From positions 1 through 56,497 of the IMG/VR virus record IMGVR_UViG_3300024517_000001: a stretch of 56,497 nucleotides of DNA; one strand, given 5' to 3'. A program made the position numbers and the translations under genes. The notes beneath the pieces were generated by a model that had not been told where the DNA came from, made no database searches, and saw only the letters and a list, made by a program, of their open reading frames with translations. Shown in pieces: positions 32,821-56,497 of the stretch (positions are counted from its first letter, which is position 1; the number at the start of each line of letters is the position of its first letter). The stretch is from a virus.

Positions 32821-33548
32821 TCTTCTGCCTCCTCCTTTTGAAATTGTATTATTCTGGGGTAACTATCTATCTGATATCCTTTCGTTAGAACATGATCAAC
32901 ATCATCTTCAAAGAAGCCATTAAAGAAAGGATAGATAATAAGATCTTTATGGTTGCGACTTTCATGTGCCAAGAATTGTAACCAATCCTGATGATGGAAT
33001 ACTGAGACATGAACATTCGTACCATCTTTGAATTTTTTCACAGCTTCATAGCAAGCTACATTTACAAAGACCATCTTCTTGGCATAGGAAAATATTTCTC
33101 TGATGACCCATCCCAGATCTTCTTCAGGTACATGTTCCATAACATCAGTACATATAACTGCATCATACTTCTCTGTAGGTAGTGTTTTAAAATCTTCATA
33201 ACCGGGATCGTAGAGATGGTATGAATCCAGATTCCAGAAATAAGGAAGAGGTTCCTTTATAACATCTGTTACACTTTCAAAGTGTTCCTGCATATAAAGA
33301 TGTCCCTTCCCACATCCGTAATCAAGTAAGGTTTTACAATTGTTACCTTCCAGAAAATTTTTAATATAACTTACATACTTGACAAGACTTCTGCCATTAA
33401 AGATACCATACCCAGAATCATGCATGTCTTTGTATTCTTTTAGAAGAGATCTATATCTTTTGGAAGGATTATCTCTACTAAGTTTTGGATCAAAAGATAT
33501 AGGCTTACGATTAACTGTTTTACCTACAACTTCAATATCACTTGGCAT
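32814..33548 (-). CDS. SAM-dependent methyltransferase
   Basis: 244 residues from the ATG at 33548, with GAGGAG eight bases upstream inside the preceding gene. Class I methyltransferase motif I is DYGCGKG (76-82), followed by DAVICTDVMEHVP (motif II region with the acidic residue and EH). The substrate is likely a sugar or small molecule, since it is in one operon with sugar-transfer genes. Overlaps both neighbours. Confidence 0.85.
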   Translation of the reverse strand: MPSDIEVVGKTVNRKPISFDPKLSRDNPSKRYRSLLKEYKDMHDSGYGIFNGRSLVKYVSYIKNFLEGNNCKTLLDYGCGKGHLYMQEHFESVTDVIKEPLPYFWNLDSYHLYDPGYEDFKTLPTEKYDAVICTDVMEHVPEEDLGWVIREIFSYAKKMVFVNVACYEAVKKFKDGTNVHVSVFHHQDWLQFLAHESRNHKDLIIYPFFNGFFEDDVDHVLTKGYQIDSYPRIIQFQKEEAEEC

Positions 33549-35919
33549 TATAGTACTCCTCAAATGCAGGTCTGTTTTCTTTTTCCAGAGCAATATCCCA
33601 GAGATCTGCTATCATTGTGTTCTCTCCGTGAAAAGTAAGAACTCCTTCCAATCCTTCATCTGAGAATACTTTCTCACAATCTTGAGCCATTGCCAGTAAC
33701 TCACCAGTAGTCCAGTAAGTTTTCTCTTTGACATTGACCTGTATGTACTTAGGTTTGGGAACTTCTCCACCATCTATATCACCTGTAGTCTCAGTCTTCT
33801 CTTCATTGGTAGGCTCATCCCGACAACATTCAAAACCAAACAGATGTATGTCCCTGAAGCCCATTGTATGCAGCATACCTATACCTCTCATGGCAGCACA
33901 TGTACCACCAGTAATGAGAGTAGATCCTTCAGGTATGCCCAGATCAGAGGAAAGCTTTACCTGTCTGTTCTGTATCTGATGTCCTTTCTCTGTATCTGTT
34001 CTGAGTGAGTCAGTAAAGGCATGCCATCCCCAGATCTGTGCTTTGTTTTCTATGAGATGATTTGTCACAGAAGGATCAGTCATAGAGGCTACAAAGAATC
34101 TGGTATCAGGATCTACTTTCTTAAACAAATCTTTACGAACAATGTTATGTGTAGACATACCAGTAATAGGTCTGGGATCTAGAATAATACAACCCCAAGG
34201 CTGTATGCCATGTTCAAGTAGTTTAGGGTAAGCATGTTTCACCGTCACTACTTTTACATCAGGATTTTCAATGGTAAATTCTTTTAACTTTTTATAATCC
34301 AGATAAGGACCAGCAGAAATAACAGCAGCCCTGTCTTTATGTACAGGATGTTTAGTAATCCACTTCTTCGGATCAATCAAGGTCATGTTAGAATTAATAT
34401 TATTCTTTATATAATCTTTAGGGACACAATCTCTGGGATGTACTATGATAGGTACTCTCTTCAGATCTTCTGGTATGTCTTCTAACTTAGAGTCATGAAG
34501 AAAAACCACAAGATGAGTATTACCACCGCCAACCACTTTATCACCTGAAGGTAATATATATTTTCTTGTTGCCGTAGATTCATCAAAGTTAGTCCATCCA
34601 TCTTTCGTTGTTTCCTGTGCATCCACTTTCTTTGTAGGTACATCATCAAATACATGTTTTACTCCTTGATATTTTTCAGGAGGAAGACCTTCATCATCAT
34701 CCGTAGTAAAGTAATGATCAGCTACAACTACTGGTACATGCTTAAGAACTTTATATTCTGCTTCAACAGTCTCCCGGCTGTTGCCGCTTCCCATCAAAGC
34801 AAAGTCAACGTCACTTATTTCCTCAGTCTTTAACATGCGATCAAGAGTTTCTCTGACATTTCCCTTATACAATTCAAAGGTAAATGTTTTATCTTCCTTA
34901 TCCTTTATATGCTTTGCAAATTCCTCAAACCTATTCCTTACAGCCTGTATAGTATTATGAGGTTTGACATTAAACTCTACATGATCTGTGTCTGTAGTAG
35001 CATCCTCAAACAAATCAAAGCCAATGTAATGAACCTTCTCCTTATGTTTGAATGCAGCCAAGGCCATCTCAATAGCCCTCCCTCCATTCCATGTTCCGCT
35101 TTCCAGTATACATTCAGGCTTGTAGAACCTGATGATGTCTGCCAGTTGTCTATATCTATTAGGAAGTATGTCAGGAGATGTCTCAGTATCCGACAATTTA
35201 ATAATGCGTTGGCCATCCTTATCTCTGACGGCCATGTTCTTTCGATCTTCCAGACTGACAATCATCTCTGAGATAGGGGAATGTTCAGGATCAATCTCAT
35301 GTACCTGCATACCATGAGCTTCATAGATAGTTCTTAGTCTATTCAGAATAAAAGTATCATGCCACTCCCTGTAGTTGGAGAACTCTCCTGAAATAAAAGC
35401 TCCTCTTAAATCTCCCAGTAAATCTACTGGCGTTTGTCTGCACAAATTATAGGCAGTTAGATAAGCCTCATCCTTTAAAGTAATCAAGTCTACCTTATCA
35501 GAGTTCTCTGGAAAGATAGATTCAATATCTTTAACAGATATATTCTTGGTATTGATGACACTGGGATCAAGCCAGATTAACCAACAACCACTACTCTCAA
35601 AGGCACACTCAGTCAGAGCTATAACTTTAGGAACAAACTTGATAGGATCAAGTATCTCATTATAAGGTATAGTATTTCCTTCAGTACCATTATGTTTACT
35701 AAATTCTTTTAGAAATTTAGGATAGTCCACTACCTCCATCAGGTTATGGTAGTGGATGTTAGCAGCTTTGGGAAGAGAATAGTTTGATAGATCAAGATTG
35801 TAATAGTAACAATGAAAGTCTATTTTATTTTCCCAGTTATCCTTGAACTCAGTAAGAAGTATACTAGTACTCTGTTGAAGAAAAGCCTCATCAAAGGCAG
35901 TTACAATTTTATATTTCAT
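33538..35919 (-). CDS. Three-domain sugar/methyl transferase-like protein with MAF_flag10 (DUF115) domain
   Basis: 793 residues. Residues 1-230 resemble a glycosyltransferase-type N-terminus (MKYKIVTAFDEAFLQQST; WLIWLDPS). Residues 260-430 have a class I methyltransferase core (ESGTWNGGRA at 273-282, IGFDLFE at 299-305). Residues about 520-760 match DUF115/MAF_flag10 (AAVISAGPYLDYKKL; GTCAAMRGIGMLHTMGFRDI, then HLFGFE), a family linked to flagellin and surface glycan decoration. I infer modification of a host or virion surface glycan. Neighbours are a glycosyltransferase and a methyltransferase. Confidence 0.75.
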   Translation of the reverse strand: MKYKIVTAFDEAFLQQSTSILLTEFKDNWENKIDFHCYYYNLDLSNYSLPKAANIHYHNLMEVVDYPKFLKEFSKHNGTEGNTIPYNEILDPIKFVPKVIALTECAFESSGCWLIWLDPSVINTKNISVKDIESIFPENSDKVDLITLKDEAYLTAYNLCRQTPVDLLGDLRGAFISGEFSNYREWHDTFILNRLRTIYEAHGMQVHEIDPEHSPISEMIVSLEDRKNMAVRDKDGQRIIKLSDTETSPDILPNRYRQLADIIRFYKPECILESGTWNGGRAIEMALAAFKHKEKVHYIGFDLFEDATTDTDHVEFNVKPHNTIQAVRNRFEEFAKHIKDKEDKTFTFELYKGNVRETLDRMLKTEEISDVDFALMGSGNSRETVEAEYKVLKHVPVVVADHYFTTDDDEGLPPEKYQGVKHVFDDVPTKKVDAQETTKDGWTNFDESTATRKYILPSGDKVVGGGNTHLVVFLHDSKLEDIPEDLKRVPIIVHPRDCVPKDYIKNNINSNMTLIDPKKWITKHPVHKDRAAVISAGPYLDYKKLKEFTIENPDVKVVTVKHAYPKLLEHGIQPWGCIILDPRPITGMSTHNIVRKDLFKKVDPDTRFFVASMTDPSVTNHLIENKAQIWGWHAFTDSLRTDTEKGHQIQNRQVKLSSDLGIPEGSTLITGGTCAAMRGIGMLHTMGFRDIHLFGFECCRDEPTNEEKTETTGDIDGGEVPKPKYIQVNVKEKTYWTTGELLAMAQDCEKVFSDEGLEGVLTFHGENTMIADLWDIALEKENRPAFEEYYNAK

Positions 35920-44738: not shown

Positions 44739-45267
44739 TCTTTTCCTCCGTTATTTTTTTAAAGTAATTACCTACTTGTATGACCTGATCTGGTGTAGCA
44801 TTATTCTTTATTCTATTAGCAAGCATACATATAATTTGTACATTTCCTTTTACATATCCTACTTCAGGAATAATTCTATCTATAGATGGTGAAGCATCAA
44901 TCTGCATTCCTTCTCCTTTTTTAAATTCAATACTAAGGACAGGACACTTATTATCTTCAGGCCATATTTCTTTAATATATTCTTTATCAAGATTAAAAGA
45001 AATATTTTTATTTCTAATCCTACTTTTAGTAACTGAACACAGATGTGCTTCCTTATTTTCTTTTCTGTGTCTTCTTTGTTGTTTTAATAAATCTTCTTTA
45101 TTTTCTTCATAATATTTTTTATAACGTTCTGCTATAGCTTCTTTATTTTTTTCACGATATTTTTTACGACTTTCTGCTATAGCTTCTTTATTTTCTTCAC
45201 AATATTTTTTATAATATTCTGCTATAGCTTCTTTATTTTCTTCAAGATATTTTTTACTATGTGGCAT
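44728..45267 (-). CDS. HNH family homing-type endonuclease with coiled-coil repeats
   Basis: 179 residues from the ATG at 45267 (GGAGG six bases upstream; the ATG at 45270 is an alternative). Five 15-residue repeats of the type KKYxEENKEAIAExx form a charged helix at the N-terminus. The C-terminal part has the HNH-like SPSIDRIIPEVGYVKGNVQI and NRIKNNAT. Repeats would position the nuclease on DNA. It lies between helicase and polymerase genes, a common place for homing endonucleases. Confidence 0.8.
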   Translation of the reverse strand: MPHSKKYLEENKEAIAEYYKKYCEENKEAIAESRKKYREKNKEAIAERYKKYYEENKEDLLKQQRRHRKENKEAHLCSVTKSRIRNKNISFNLDKEYIKEIWPEDNKCPVLSIEFKKGEGMQIDASPSIDRIIPEVGYVKGNVQIICMLANRIKNNATPDQVIQVGNYFKKITEEKNAA

Positions 45268-46873
45268 CATCCTCCTCCATAAAAGGATTATCAACCTGTG
45301 ACATCCTGCCTGTCTCCTTATTATAGTGGAGGTAACAGGCAATACCAGTGTCTCCTGTGTATCTATTCTTGAGTATACGAAGAGTAGTGGTGTTAGCCTC
45401 ATGCTCGTCTTCTGCTTGTTGATTTCTTTCCAAGGCTATAACACTATCAGATAGGTGAGCTATACTAGCTGACCCTCTAAGATGCGACAGGCTGACCTCT
45501 CTGCCATCCTCATGGCCTCTGTCTCCTGCTGGTCTACGTAGGTGAGATACCAGTAAGAGTGCTATCCCTGTCTCTTCTACAAGGGATCTTAACTTGGTCA
45601 TTAGTACATCAATAGACTTTCTTTCATCTCCAAACTCTTCGTTTCCTGATACCAGTATGGAGAGGTGATCCAGAAAGATCCACTTACAGTCCAGAGCTTT
45701 AGCCATATACCTTACTCTATCAAGAATTTCATTGTTAGATATAGAACCAAAGTGATCGAATGCATAGAACCTTTTACTATCAATGGTCTTCTTCTGCCAC
45801 TCCCTAAGTTGCTCAGTAGTATACTGATCCCTTATTTCTTTGATGTATAGTCGAGCATTCGCTTCTACTGACATAAGATTAAAGGCTGTATGTTTTACAT
45901 TTTCTTCCATACAAAGTACACCTATATTATCCAGAGTACTTAACATAATATGATGCATGAGTTCCCTAATGATACTACTCTTACCCATGCCAGCACCACT
46001 GGTAAACGTAATGAGTTCTCCTGTCCTCATGCCATAGGTTTTCTCATTCATCTTAGGCCAAGGATACAGACAGGTTTCATTATAGTTCTCCTCATAGAGG
46101 GACTCCCCAAGGTCTGCAAGATTTATAATACCTGCTGGTGTGTAAGGCTTGGAGTTCCACCATGCCTGAGTAAAGCTTTCACGCCTTCCTTTTTGCAGAT
46201 ACTCATTCGCATCCTTAAATTCAAGAGCCATAATCTTACACTTGTTAGGTTCAAATAACTGGGCTACCTGTTGTGCCGCTTCTTTACCGGGAGCATCGTT
46301 ATCAAAACAGAGGACTACAGTCTCAAACTTGTTAAGATAATTAAAGGCTTGCTTGCAATTCTCTACGGCAGATGCAGCCCCATTCTTAATGGAAACCACA
46401 GGCCATTTGCTACCCATTAATTCATAGGCAGACATAGCATCTACTTCACCTTCACATACTGTGATATACTTACCAGCCTGATTGAATATGTTCTGTCCAA
46501 ATAGACCAGCCATAGAGATGTTACCTTCTGACCAGAACTTTTTAGTCAGAGCATTGCGTACCTTATTAGCTATGTGATTGTTATCTTCATCAAAGTATCT
46601 ATAAATATGATGGGTTACTTTTCCTCCATCAGCTAACTGAACCAAGGTATTAAACCTTTGAACTGTGTCCTTGCTAATGCTTCGGTCAGGGATTGAAGAC
46701 ACCTGTCCAGAGGACTTTAAACTGGAGCTAACTTCTACATTCATGGGAATAACCTCTGCTGTACCATTTGAAAATCTAGTCTTACAACTATAACAATACG
46801 AATGACCGTCATCATATAGATGATGGGCATCACTGGAACTACAACTAGGGCATGGCCCCTTTCGTTTAAGCAT
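45257..46873 (-). CDS. Primase-helicase (T7 gp4 / Twinkle-like)
   Basis: 538 residues from the ATG at 46873, which has AAGGAG five bases upstream. Zinc-binding Cys C8, C11, C27 and C30, then a TOPRIM core (CEGEVDA at 140-146; CFDNDAPGKEA near 189) and a RecA-like helicase core with Walker A SGAGMGKSS (292-300), WIFLDHLSIL (Walker B) and LLLVSHLRRP (H4 loop). It makes primers and unwinds the fork ahead of the polymerase. Hairpin H2 lies just upstream of its start. Confidence 0.95.
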   Translation of the reverse strand: MLKRKGPCPSCSSSDAHHLYDDGHSYCYSCKTRFSNGTAEVIPMNVEVSSSLKSSGQVSSIPDRSISKDTVQRFNTLVQLADGGKVTHHIYRYFDEDNNHIANKVRNALTKKFWSEGNISMAGLFGQNIFNQAGKYITVCEGEVDAMSAYELMGSKWPVVSIKNGAASAVENCKQAFNYLNKFETVVLCFDNDAPGKEAAQQVAQLFEPNKCKIMALEFKDANEYLQKGRRESFTQAWWNSKPYTPAGIINLADLGESLYEENYNETCLYPWPKMNEKTYGMRTGELITFTSGAGMGKSSIIRELMHHIMLSTLDNIGVLCMEENVKHTAFNLMSVEANARLYIKEIRDQYTTEQLREWQKKTIDSKRFYAFDHFGSISNNEILDRVRYMAKALDCKWIFLDHLSILVSGNEEFGDERKSIDVLMTKLRSLVEETGIALLLVSHLRRPAGDRGHEDGREVSLSHLRGSASIAHLSDSVIALERNQQAEDEHEANTTTLRILKNRYTGDTGIACYLHYNKETGRMSQVDNPFMEEDDAT

Positions 46874-50905: not shown

Positions 50906-50958
50906 TTAATGAGTATCTAGTAGAGTTCGTTAGTACTCACTCTACTAGATCTCATTAA
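50906..50958 (-). repeat. Hairpin element H3
   Basis: Stem of 19-20 bp (50906-50925 with 50940-50958) with a one-base bulge; loop TTCGTTAGTACTCA. The stem sequence differs from H1/H2 but still pairs. The right arm encodes the last residues and stop of the 50945-51145 gene. Confidence 0.85.
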
Positions 50959-52445: not shown

Positions 52446-52500
52446 TTAATTACGTTCTCTATCTAGTACGTAAGTACTAACTAGATAGAGAACTAATTAA
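52446..52500 (-). repeat. Hairpin element H4
   Basis: Stem 52446-52466 with 52481-52500 (20 bp, one-base bulge); loop TACGTAAGTACTAA. The stem (TCTCTATCTAG) is different from H1-H3 yet pairs fully. It lies between the glycosylase-like gene and the 52287-52430 gene. Confidence 0.9.
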
Positions 52501-53728: not shown

Positions 53729-53780
53729 TTAATTAACTCCCTCTAGTTACGTAAACACTTAACTAGAGGGATTTAATTAA
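53729..53780 (-). repeat. Hairpin element H5
   Basis: Stem 53729-53748 with 53761-53780, 20 bp with one mismatch; loop ACGTAAACACTT. It lies between the 53788-53961 stop and the leader of the 53480-53677 gene. Confidence 0.85.
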
Positions 53781-54252: not shown

Positions 54253-54305
54253 TTAATTAACCCTCTGTAGTTACGTAAGTACTTAAACTACAGAGGTTTA
54301 ATTAA
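54253..54305 (-). repeat. Hairpin element H6
   Basis: Stem 54253-54272 with 54286-54305, 20 bp with one mismatch; loop ACGTAAGTACTTA. Stem core CCTCTGTAGTT. It lies just upstream of the 53973-54236 start. Confidence 0.9.
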
Positions 54306-54745: not shown

Positions 54746-54797
54746 TTAATTACTAAGTATTAGTTACGTAAATACTTAACTAATACTTAGTAATTAA
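54746..54797 (-). repeat. Hairpin element H7
   Basis: Perfect 20-bp stem (54746-54765 with 54778-54797), arm TACTAAGTATTAGTT, loop ACGTAAATACTT. The stem sequence is wholly different from H6 and H8 on either side. Confidence 0.9.
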
Positions 54798-54833: not shown

Positions 54834-55034
54834 TTAGGCTGCTTTCCGTGAGGTTTCTACACCTTCAGGGACTGCATCAAGGTTCTTAATGACCTTGAAA
54901 GCCTGTACTGTGTTACCCTCTTTGAGGGCATGCAGTACTGCTACTGGAATACCAGCATCAGCTTTGTCTTGGAAACCATCTTCTTTGATGGTCTGCCATT
55001 TATTTGCTTTCGTCAAGAACTGAAATGTTTTCAT
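54834..55034 (-). CDS. Small Lys/Ala-rich protein
   Basis: 66 residues from the ATG at 55034 with GGAG seven bases upstream. MKTFQFLTKANKWQTIKEDG then FQDKADAGIPVAVLHALKEG: helical. Leader shared with 53480-53677. Function unknown. Confidence 0.65.
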   Translation of the reverse strand: MKTFQFLTKANKWQTIKEDGFQDKADAGIPVAVLHALKEGNTVQAFKVIKNLDAVPEGVETSRKAA

Positions 55035-55086: not shown

Positions 55087-55138
55087 TTAATTAACCCTCT
55101 GTAGTTTCGTAAGTACTTAACTACAGAGGTTTAATTAA
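55087..55138 (-). repeat. Hairpin element H8
   Basis: Stem 55087-55106 with 55119-55138, 20 bp with one mismatch; loop TCGTAAGTACTT. The stem is the same as H6, but the loop differs by one base. Confidence 0.9.
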
Positions 55139-55335: not shown

Positions 55336-55388
55336 TTAATTAACCCTTGGTAGTTACGTAAGTACTTAAACTACCAAGGTTTAATTAA
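55336..55388 (-). repeat. Hairpin element H9
   Basis: Stem 55336-55355 with 55369-55388, 20 bp with one mismatch; loop ACGTAAGTACTTA. Stem CCTTGGTAGTT differs from H6/H8 by compensated changes (CTCTG versus CTTGG, with the matching changes in the other arm). Confidence 0.9.
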
Positions 55389-55920: not shown

Positions 55921-55974
55921 TCAGGTAACTCTCTGTAGTTACGTAAAGTACTTAAACTACAGAGAGCTACCTGA
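55921..55974 (-). repeat. Hairpin element H10
   Basis: Stem 55921-55940 with 55955-55974 (20 bp; the one imperfect pair is G-U on the minus-strand RNA); loop ACGTAAAGTACTTA with one extra base. Lies upstream of the first minus-strand gene. Followed on the minus strand by a run of seven T, six bases below the stem. Confidence 0.85.
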
Positions 55975-55995: not shown

Positions 55996-56126
55996 CTTCA
56001 ACCTCGTCATCGATCTGTCAAGCCTCGTCAAAATCCTAGGGATTTCGTCATGTGTCAAAGATCTCTGATCTTCCTATGCACAAGTAAAATCCCTTGGATT
56101 TTCAAAGACTTATCGATAGGTTGAAG
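55996..56126. other. Long rod-like imperfect palindrome
   Basis: CTTCAACCT (55996-56004) pairs with AGGTTGAAG (56118-56126); ATCGAT (56009-56014) pairs with ATCGAT (56112-56117); a 16-bp arm 56030-56045 pairs with 56087-56102 (one mismatch); TGTG (56051-56054) pairs with CACA (56079-56082); AAGATC (56058-56063) pairs with GATCTT (56067-56072) over a TCT loop. These are nested in order, so one folded rod of about 130 bases is possible. Confidence 0.75.
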
Positions 56127-56153
56127 TATTTAGCAAAGCTAGGGATTGGGTTT

Positions 56154-56182
56154 TAATTACATCCTCTGGATGATTTTGTCAA
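56154..56182 (-). promoter_or_regulatory. Candidate early promoter of minus arm
   Basis: On the minus strand a perfect TTGACA (56177-56182) and TAATTA (56154-56159), 17 bases apart. The -10 box is weak, but the position (about 260 bases before the first minus gene) is right. Other TTGAC sequences occur at 56016-56058 without good -10 boxes. Confidence 0.3.
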
Positions 56183-56230
56183 CCTTCCCCTAAACTTCGT
56201 TTAAACTTAGCCAATCCAACTACTAAACTA

Positions 56231-56271
56231 GGATCTCTCTAAGTTCAGTAAGAACTTCCTTAGAGAGATCC
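56231..56271. other. 13-bp hairpin in the non-coding junction
   Basis: GGATCTCTCTAAG (56231-56243) pairs perfectly with CTTAGAGAGATCC (56259-56271). The loop contains AAGTTC/GAACTT, which can pair further. Followed by GTTTAAAC. No T-run on either side, so not a simple terminator. Confidence 0.75.
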
Positions 56272-56446
56272 GTTTAAACCCCCAGAAATCAGGGGAATTT
56301 CCTCGTAATGTGCAGGTAGGGGGGGGAAAGATTCGTGTGCGCCTATATATATATAAAACAGACCTCTCAAAAAGTTTCAAAAATCTACGGCCTATTCATC
56401 AAATAGAAAATAAAATAATATAGTGATATATATAGCACATGTCGGG

Positions 56447-56462: not shown

Positions 56463-56497
56463 ACAGGTACTTACACAGGTACTTACACAGGTACTTA
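56463..56497. repeat. Terminal direct repeat, right copy
   Basis: Identical to bases 1-35 (12-bp tandem units ACAGGTACTTAC). Indicates a circular or terminally redundant assembly. Confidence 0.9.

Follow-up and report, generated by a model that had tools for sequence, protein, structure and literature searches.

A putative structured RNA in the early leader of a virus group and its small candidate partner protein

Gene layout around the junction

The window, meaning the whole stretch of 56,497 nucleotides analysed here (IMG/VR record IMGVR_UViG_3300024517_000001), carries genes for a large terminase (TerL, phrog_38), a portal, a T7-like primase-helicase, a DNA polymerase and a ribonucleotide reductase. 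TerL and the structural genes are read rightward, and the early and replication genes are read leftward and end at a junction at which the gene strand switches and the cumulative GC skew has its minimum. Along the minus strand the junction holds, in order, a promoter-like block, a first long hairpin, a smaller hairpin termed h0, a rod-like pairing, a second long hairpin and the first early ORF (Table 1). A scan of the larger ORFs and part of the small ones recognised no phage RNA polymerase, so the early operon is probably read by the host polymerase. No tRNA or tmRNA was found in the window with ARAGORN, the TerL search of bacterial genomes gave no relative, and annotated phages gave no DNA match.

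A 12-bp tandem repeat, ACAGGTACTTAC, is present in 2.9 copies at 56463-56497 and also at 1-35; both contig ends thus share 35 bases made up of copies of this repeat. In the relative L088 four copies follow one another without a break; the overlap of the window's ends is therefore taken as an assembly effect and gives no evidence for terminal repeats. It looks like that of a circular assembly cut inside the tandem repeat. Elsewhere in the window, a 45-bp (15-codon) repeat, of in-frame length, occurs four times at 45047-45271, where the endonuclease VII-like ORF region ends. The minus-strand ORF at 33538-35919 encodes a protein of 793 aa that has an MptE-like domain (Pfam PF01973, E 2.2e-12); a methyltransferase gene and a glycosyltransferase-like gene are its neighbours.

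The promoter-like layout is alike in nearly all relatives that carry the RNA element described below. The automatic consensus promoter scan did not list the block, and its function as a promoter is inferred from its conservation. Long hairpins comparable to the two of the window occur in many relatives, at about -200 to -160 and +59 to +95 from motif D1, in a survey that missed several because of bulges. Similar palindromes, with an apical CTTAC or TAAGTACTTACGTAA, precede several other early genes. Those lying just before early genes in the window measure 35-53 bp and have a conserved loop (TAAGTACTTACGTAA or close to it) and varying stems; they are possible RNase III sites or operators.

Table 1. 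Features of the junction and the neighbouring early region, in the order of the minus strand where they belong to the leader
Feature	Position	Strand	Basis or remark
Promoter-like sequence for the leftward early transcript (TTGAAA, 17 nt, TTTATA, within GATTTTTGAAA...TTTGAGAGGTCTGTTTTATATATATA)	56352-56380	-	read from sequence
Flanking long hairpin 1 (GGATCTCTCTAAG..CTTAC..CTTAGAGAGATCC)	56231-56271	-	fold
Hairpin h0 (GGTT stem, internal loop, invariant tip)	56149-56184	-	relatives compared
Rod, pairing preferred in the window clade, with extra 9-bp base	55996-56126	-	folding energies
Closing stem P1, 5' side (AAGTC)	56107-56111	-	pairs with 56020-56024 (GGCTT)
Hairpin ha (AAAATCC-AAG-GGATTTT)	56086-56102	-	after conserved TTGA
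Hairpin ht (AAGATC-AGA-GATCTT)	56058-56072	-	tip of the rod
GAYGA motif D1	56045-56049	-	52 nt after TTGA
Hairpin hb (AAATCC-CTA-GGATTT)	56031-56045	-	between D1 and D2
GAYGA motif D2	56025-56029	-	20 nt after D1 in nearly all relatives
Closing stem P1, 3' side (GGCTT)	56020-56024	-	duplex energies
GAYGA motif D3	56004-56008	-
Flanking long hairpin 2	55921-55974	-	before first early ORF
First early ORF after the leader, 49 aa	55747-55896	-
Small early protein family B, 55 aa	55401-55568	-	co-occurrence
Small early protein family A, 66 aa (candidate partner)	54834-55034	-	co-occurrence
Palindromes before early genes	53729-53780, 54253-54305, 54746-54797, 55087-55138, 55336-55388, 52454-52493, 50915-50950

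The rod and the conserved core

The sequence-only reading had described a single rod in the non-coding junction, and the pairing is found there, with a fold far beyond chance on both strands: -43.1 kcal/mol on the plus strand (z -5.66) and -51.4 kcal/mol on the minus strand (z -7.53), with 0 of 200 shuffles as good in either case. The 9-bp base is perfect (CTTCAACCT/AGGTTGAAG, 55996-56004 with 56118-56126), the long arm has the one mismatch ascribed to it (AAAATCCTAGGGATTT pairs with AAAATCCCTTGGATTTT), and the direct repeat noted on the minus strand is GACGAGG, present twice, at 56029-56023 and 56008-56002. The placement between divergent arms near iterons likewise agrees with the gene directions and the 12-bp repeats. 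What had been missed are three small triloop hairpins within the rod (ha, ht and hb), the reach of the conserved element upstream to about 56184, beyond the rod, and the transcript-like strand, which is the minus strand and gives the stronger fold.

Relatives were gathered by TerL and pattern searches, which gave many contigs with this junction, and about 25 divergent relatives were compared, using MAFFT alignments of the rod region (12 sequences) and of the core (24 sequences). The invariant letters in these alignments are a TTGA and two GAYGA motifs, not the rod arms. In otherwise very different sequences the spacing is near-fixed, as TTGA-52 nt-GAYGA-15 nt-GAYGA, with the distance from TTGA to D1 sometimes 51 or 50 nt; such one-base length differences indicate that the element is not coding. 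The invariant tip of h0, CATCCnnnGGATG (CATCC-nnn-GGATG, 56160-56172), lies 122-125 nt before D1 in relatives holding both.

Among 18 representatives, stems of at least 5 bp are present for ha in 15 (0.8 expected from shuffles), for ht in 14 (1.1 expected) and for hb in 12 (0.2 expected). The hairpins differ by one or two bases in register between relatives and a fixed-register covariation scan therefore failed; an anchored, gapless comparison was used. Compensatory changes affect 4 of 6 pairs in hb (98% paired), 5 of 7 in ha (87% paired) and 2 of 6 in a second register class of ha (100% paired). The covariation scores of all three exceed those of all slid controls and all 500 shuffles. The comparison for covariation with related phages, suggested when the rod was first described, thus finds compensatory changes in ha and hb. 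The covariance model R1, built on five sequences, also matched the plus strand at 32-39 bits, because the element is palindromic. The closing stem P1 (AAGYC with GGCUU) is supported by the comparison of own with swapped duplex energies, at a permutation p of 0.0016 over 17 representatives, among which one or two, L026 for instance, may have matched by chance. The preference for one strand is modest, 12 to 5 over 17 representatives and about 12 to 5 for whole leaders.

Within the window, ha and hb are near-identical palindromes and so pair with each other into the rod, which, in a fold of this one sequence, is 11 kcal/mol more stable than ha and hb kept apart. The rod pairing is also good in L023, L091 and L103, weaker in L075 and L110, and present in the closest relatives (L001, L055, L088 and L023), so that the loss of pairing in close relatives, named at the outset as refuting, is not seen in these; L103 keeps it and has lost both small hairpins. 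The stability of the rod in the window and the pairing in L023, L091 and L103 would suit a rod that is itself the conserved functional structure, with the small hairpins as a by-product. Such a role for the rod is nevertheless unlikely, as ha and hb each covary within themselves, and own ha-hb duplexes are only slightly better than swapped ones on average over 18 representatives (-12.3 versus -10.2 kcal/mol) and no better than swaps in L051, L108, L134 and L168. Several relatives cannot form a rod and keep the two small hairpins, and separate hairpins are the minimum fold in L093, L134, L154 and L108. P1 and ht are common to both arrangements.

The one rod first described therefore holds for the window clade and a few others; as a universal structure it was rejected, own and swapped duplexes differing little on average. 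By sequence comparison, the rod is a lineage-specific pairing of a more widely conserved element, and its alternation with the separate hairpins may be either drift between equivalent folds or a switch. Palindromic repeats can evidently make a striking rod in one genome when the conserved feature is another arrangement of the same pieces.

Distribution and the family A protein

Among 71 distinct upstream regions, 20 carry h0 and the core by a strict pattern, and several more do so by a relaxed reading. The RNA is present in 18 TerL relatives and absent in 39, and its presence does not track TerL similarity, since relatives at 88-89% identity are without it and relatives at 71-81% have it. One 106,894-base record (L259) carries two different TerL copies, 71% and 69% identical to that of the window, and perhaps represents two genomes joined in assembly. 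At the same junction upstream of TerL, the RNA-lacking contigs L145, L071, L128, L129, L153 and L024 carry unrelated leaders, some of which hold direct repeats of their own (in L129 an array of GAATACTTG).

Comparison of five RNA-bearing with six RNA-lacking long contigs brought to light small early proteins that occur in the former alone. Family A (66-70 aa) is encoded in 18 of 18 RNA-bearing relatives and family B in 15 of 18, each in 0 of the 39 RNA-lacking ones; L001 and L170 are counted here as RNA-bearing though missed by the strict pattern, L001 for its strong covariance-model match and L170 by eye. In a search that started from family A alone, the RNA core was found upstream on the same strand at 37 of 38 loci with enough sequence, chance cores occurring at 2 per 4.8 Mb and the loci being related, not independent. 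The sole exception, L268, has a degenerate core by eye. All 17 family A records tested encode this TerL, at 64-81% identity, and the RNA and family A would thus seem to belong to one virus group, with no spread beyond it as far as tested. The two are close neighbours, within about 0.25-1.7 kb, and their co-occurrence could therefore reflect inheritance as one block. Other genes separate family A from the RNA in many relatives, and the first gene after the leader varies between relatives while the RNA persists.

Family A has no match in Pfam, PHROG or annotated phages and no convincing relative in the PDB. Its model is a beta-beta-alpha-beta-beta arrangement (pLDDT 81). Fold comparison against the PDB was uninformative (best Foldseek E 0.34, best Z 3.5) and pointed to neither a clear relative nor a known RNA-binding fold.

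Possible roles of the element

The compensatory hairpin changes, the fixed spacings and the conserved early-leader position across many relatives support one of the options first named for the rod, a structured RNA. The element can be described as a conserved structured RNA of the minus strand, roughly 220-260 nt, which is predicted to stand at the 5' end of the leftward early transcript and makes up an uncatalogued family. No match at the gathering threshold of Rfam 15 was found in the window, and at permissive settings the leader and eight relatives yielded nothing but Rfam matches far under the threshold, mainly to microRNA families. The hammerhead ribozyme has the core motif CUGANGA, which UGAYGA resembles; no separate GAAA segment or cleavage site was recognised, no Rfam ribozyme matched, and this candidate was rejected.

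Phage leader RNAs known to steer the host RNA polymerase are few. The nearest precedent in position is the put RNA of HK022, an early-leader RNA of about 70 nt with two stem-loops that needs no protein to act on E. coli RNA polymerase (PMC9378689). Like put, the element is a structured RNA in a phage early-operon leader, near what is here a promoter-like sequence; unlike put, it spans about 220-260 nt with a closing stem, three hairpins and an upstream hairpin, and it is strictly linked to a small phage protein where put needs none. In joining a leader RNA with a small early protein of the same operon it resembles lambda N and nut. However, boxA-like sites (GCUCUUUA/GCUCUUAC-like, at most 1 mismatch) number 0 in 17 leaders, with 3.2 expected, so the element is not a nut site. 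Family A is encoded in the right place for an arginine-rich N-like protein; the libraries searched gave no N-like sequence match for it, and its predicted fold is beta-beta-alpha-beta-beta. T7-type early mRNAs carry RNase III hairpins before several early genes, as the long hairpins do here, whereas the core element is single-copy and has conserved sequence motifs.

The explanation preferred here, at a probability of roughly 0.45, is a cis-acting early-leader RNA that would be transcribed from the promoter-like block, bound by the family A protein and used to antiterminate the early operon. Transcription would begin just upstream of the RNA, which would fold as the polymerase leaves; in several relatives ha and hb can only stay separate, giving a cross-shaped core. 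The family A protein, a product of the same operon, would then bind the RNA, and the host RNA polymerase, acted on in cis by that RNA, would read through the long early operon. The flanking hairpins, of a kind also found before several other early genes, would probably serve transcript processing. A leader RNA is supported by the conserved place of the element, which lies upstream of TerL with the promoter-like sequence on one side and the first early ORF on the other, and it is from this position that antitermination is perhaps to be read. The modest strand preference, the 39 relatives that do without the element, the missing boxA-like site and the lack of a known RNA-binding fold in family A all weigh against this explanation.

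Its main rival, appreciably less probable, is a discrete trans-acting small RNA of about 220-260 nt, freed by cutting of the flanking hairpins (e.g. by host RNase III) and binding a host or phage protein. Long hairpins at similar distances on both sides in many relatives, the persistence of the RNA while the first gene after the leader differs, and the repeated GAYGA, which suggests a multi-site binder, are all consistent with a freed RNA; however, the same kind of hairpin before other early genes is not specific to this RNA, and no terminator-like site follows the element directly on the minus strand. The Watson-Crick changes alone cannot separate RNA from DNA hairpins, and the modest strand preference (12 of 17) leaves room for roles at the DNA level. 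In a replication origin or operator, the GAYGA repeats (20-23 bp spacing) and small palindromes would be recognised at the DNA level, where they might extrude as hairpins or offer primase sites (plus-strand GTC), and the GC-skew minimum, the divergent genes with nearby 12-bp tandem repeats and the T7-like primase-helicase of the phage fit such a site. GC skew tracks gene strand here, however, some relatives whose primase-helicase is 71-73% identical carry the element and others lack it, and the element keeps one orientation to the early genes, within the leader, all of which makes a DNA element improbable.

Still less credit is due to the idea that the RNA serves family A as an antitoxin or in autoregulation, much as in type III toxin-antitoxin systems. 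A single small protein strictly linked to an RNA that lies upstream of it recalls such pairs, yet tandem pseudoknot repeats are absent, the array at 56463-56497 being the only one in the region and of 12-bp units; order and spacing vary, other genes intervene in many relatives, and family A belongs to no Pfam or PHROG family. A packaging (pac or cos) site, the least probable of these explanations and another option raised when the rod was first described, would suit an element adjoining TerL, but this option is disfavoured by the distribution of the element, which does not follow TerL similarity, and by contig ends that lie within the 12-bp repeat and owe their overlap to assembly.

For the antitermination reading, a fuller and distinctly more tentative form would be a two-part regulator, in which a cross-shaped RNA with GAYGA junction motifs and a protein of a new family, A, reprogram the host polymerase for processive early transcription, and in which the rod form might be a switch. 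The antitermination reading, if true, would bring to the few such leader RNAs a conserved family present on many marine phage contigs, together with a candidate protein partner that makes the function directly testable with two short pieces.
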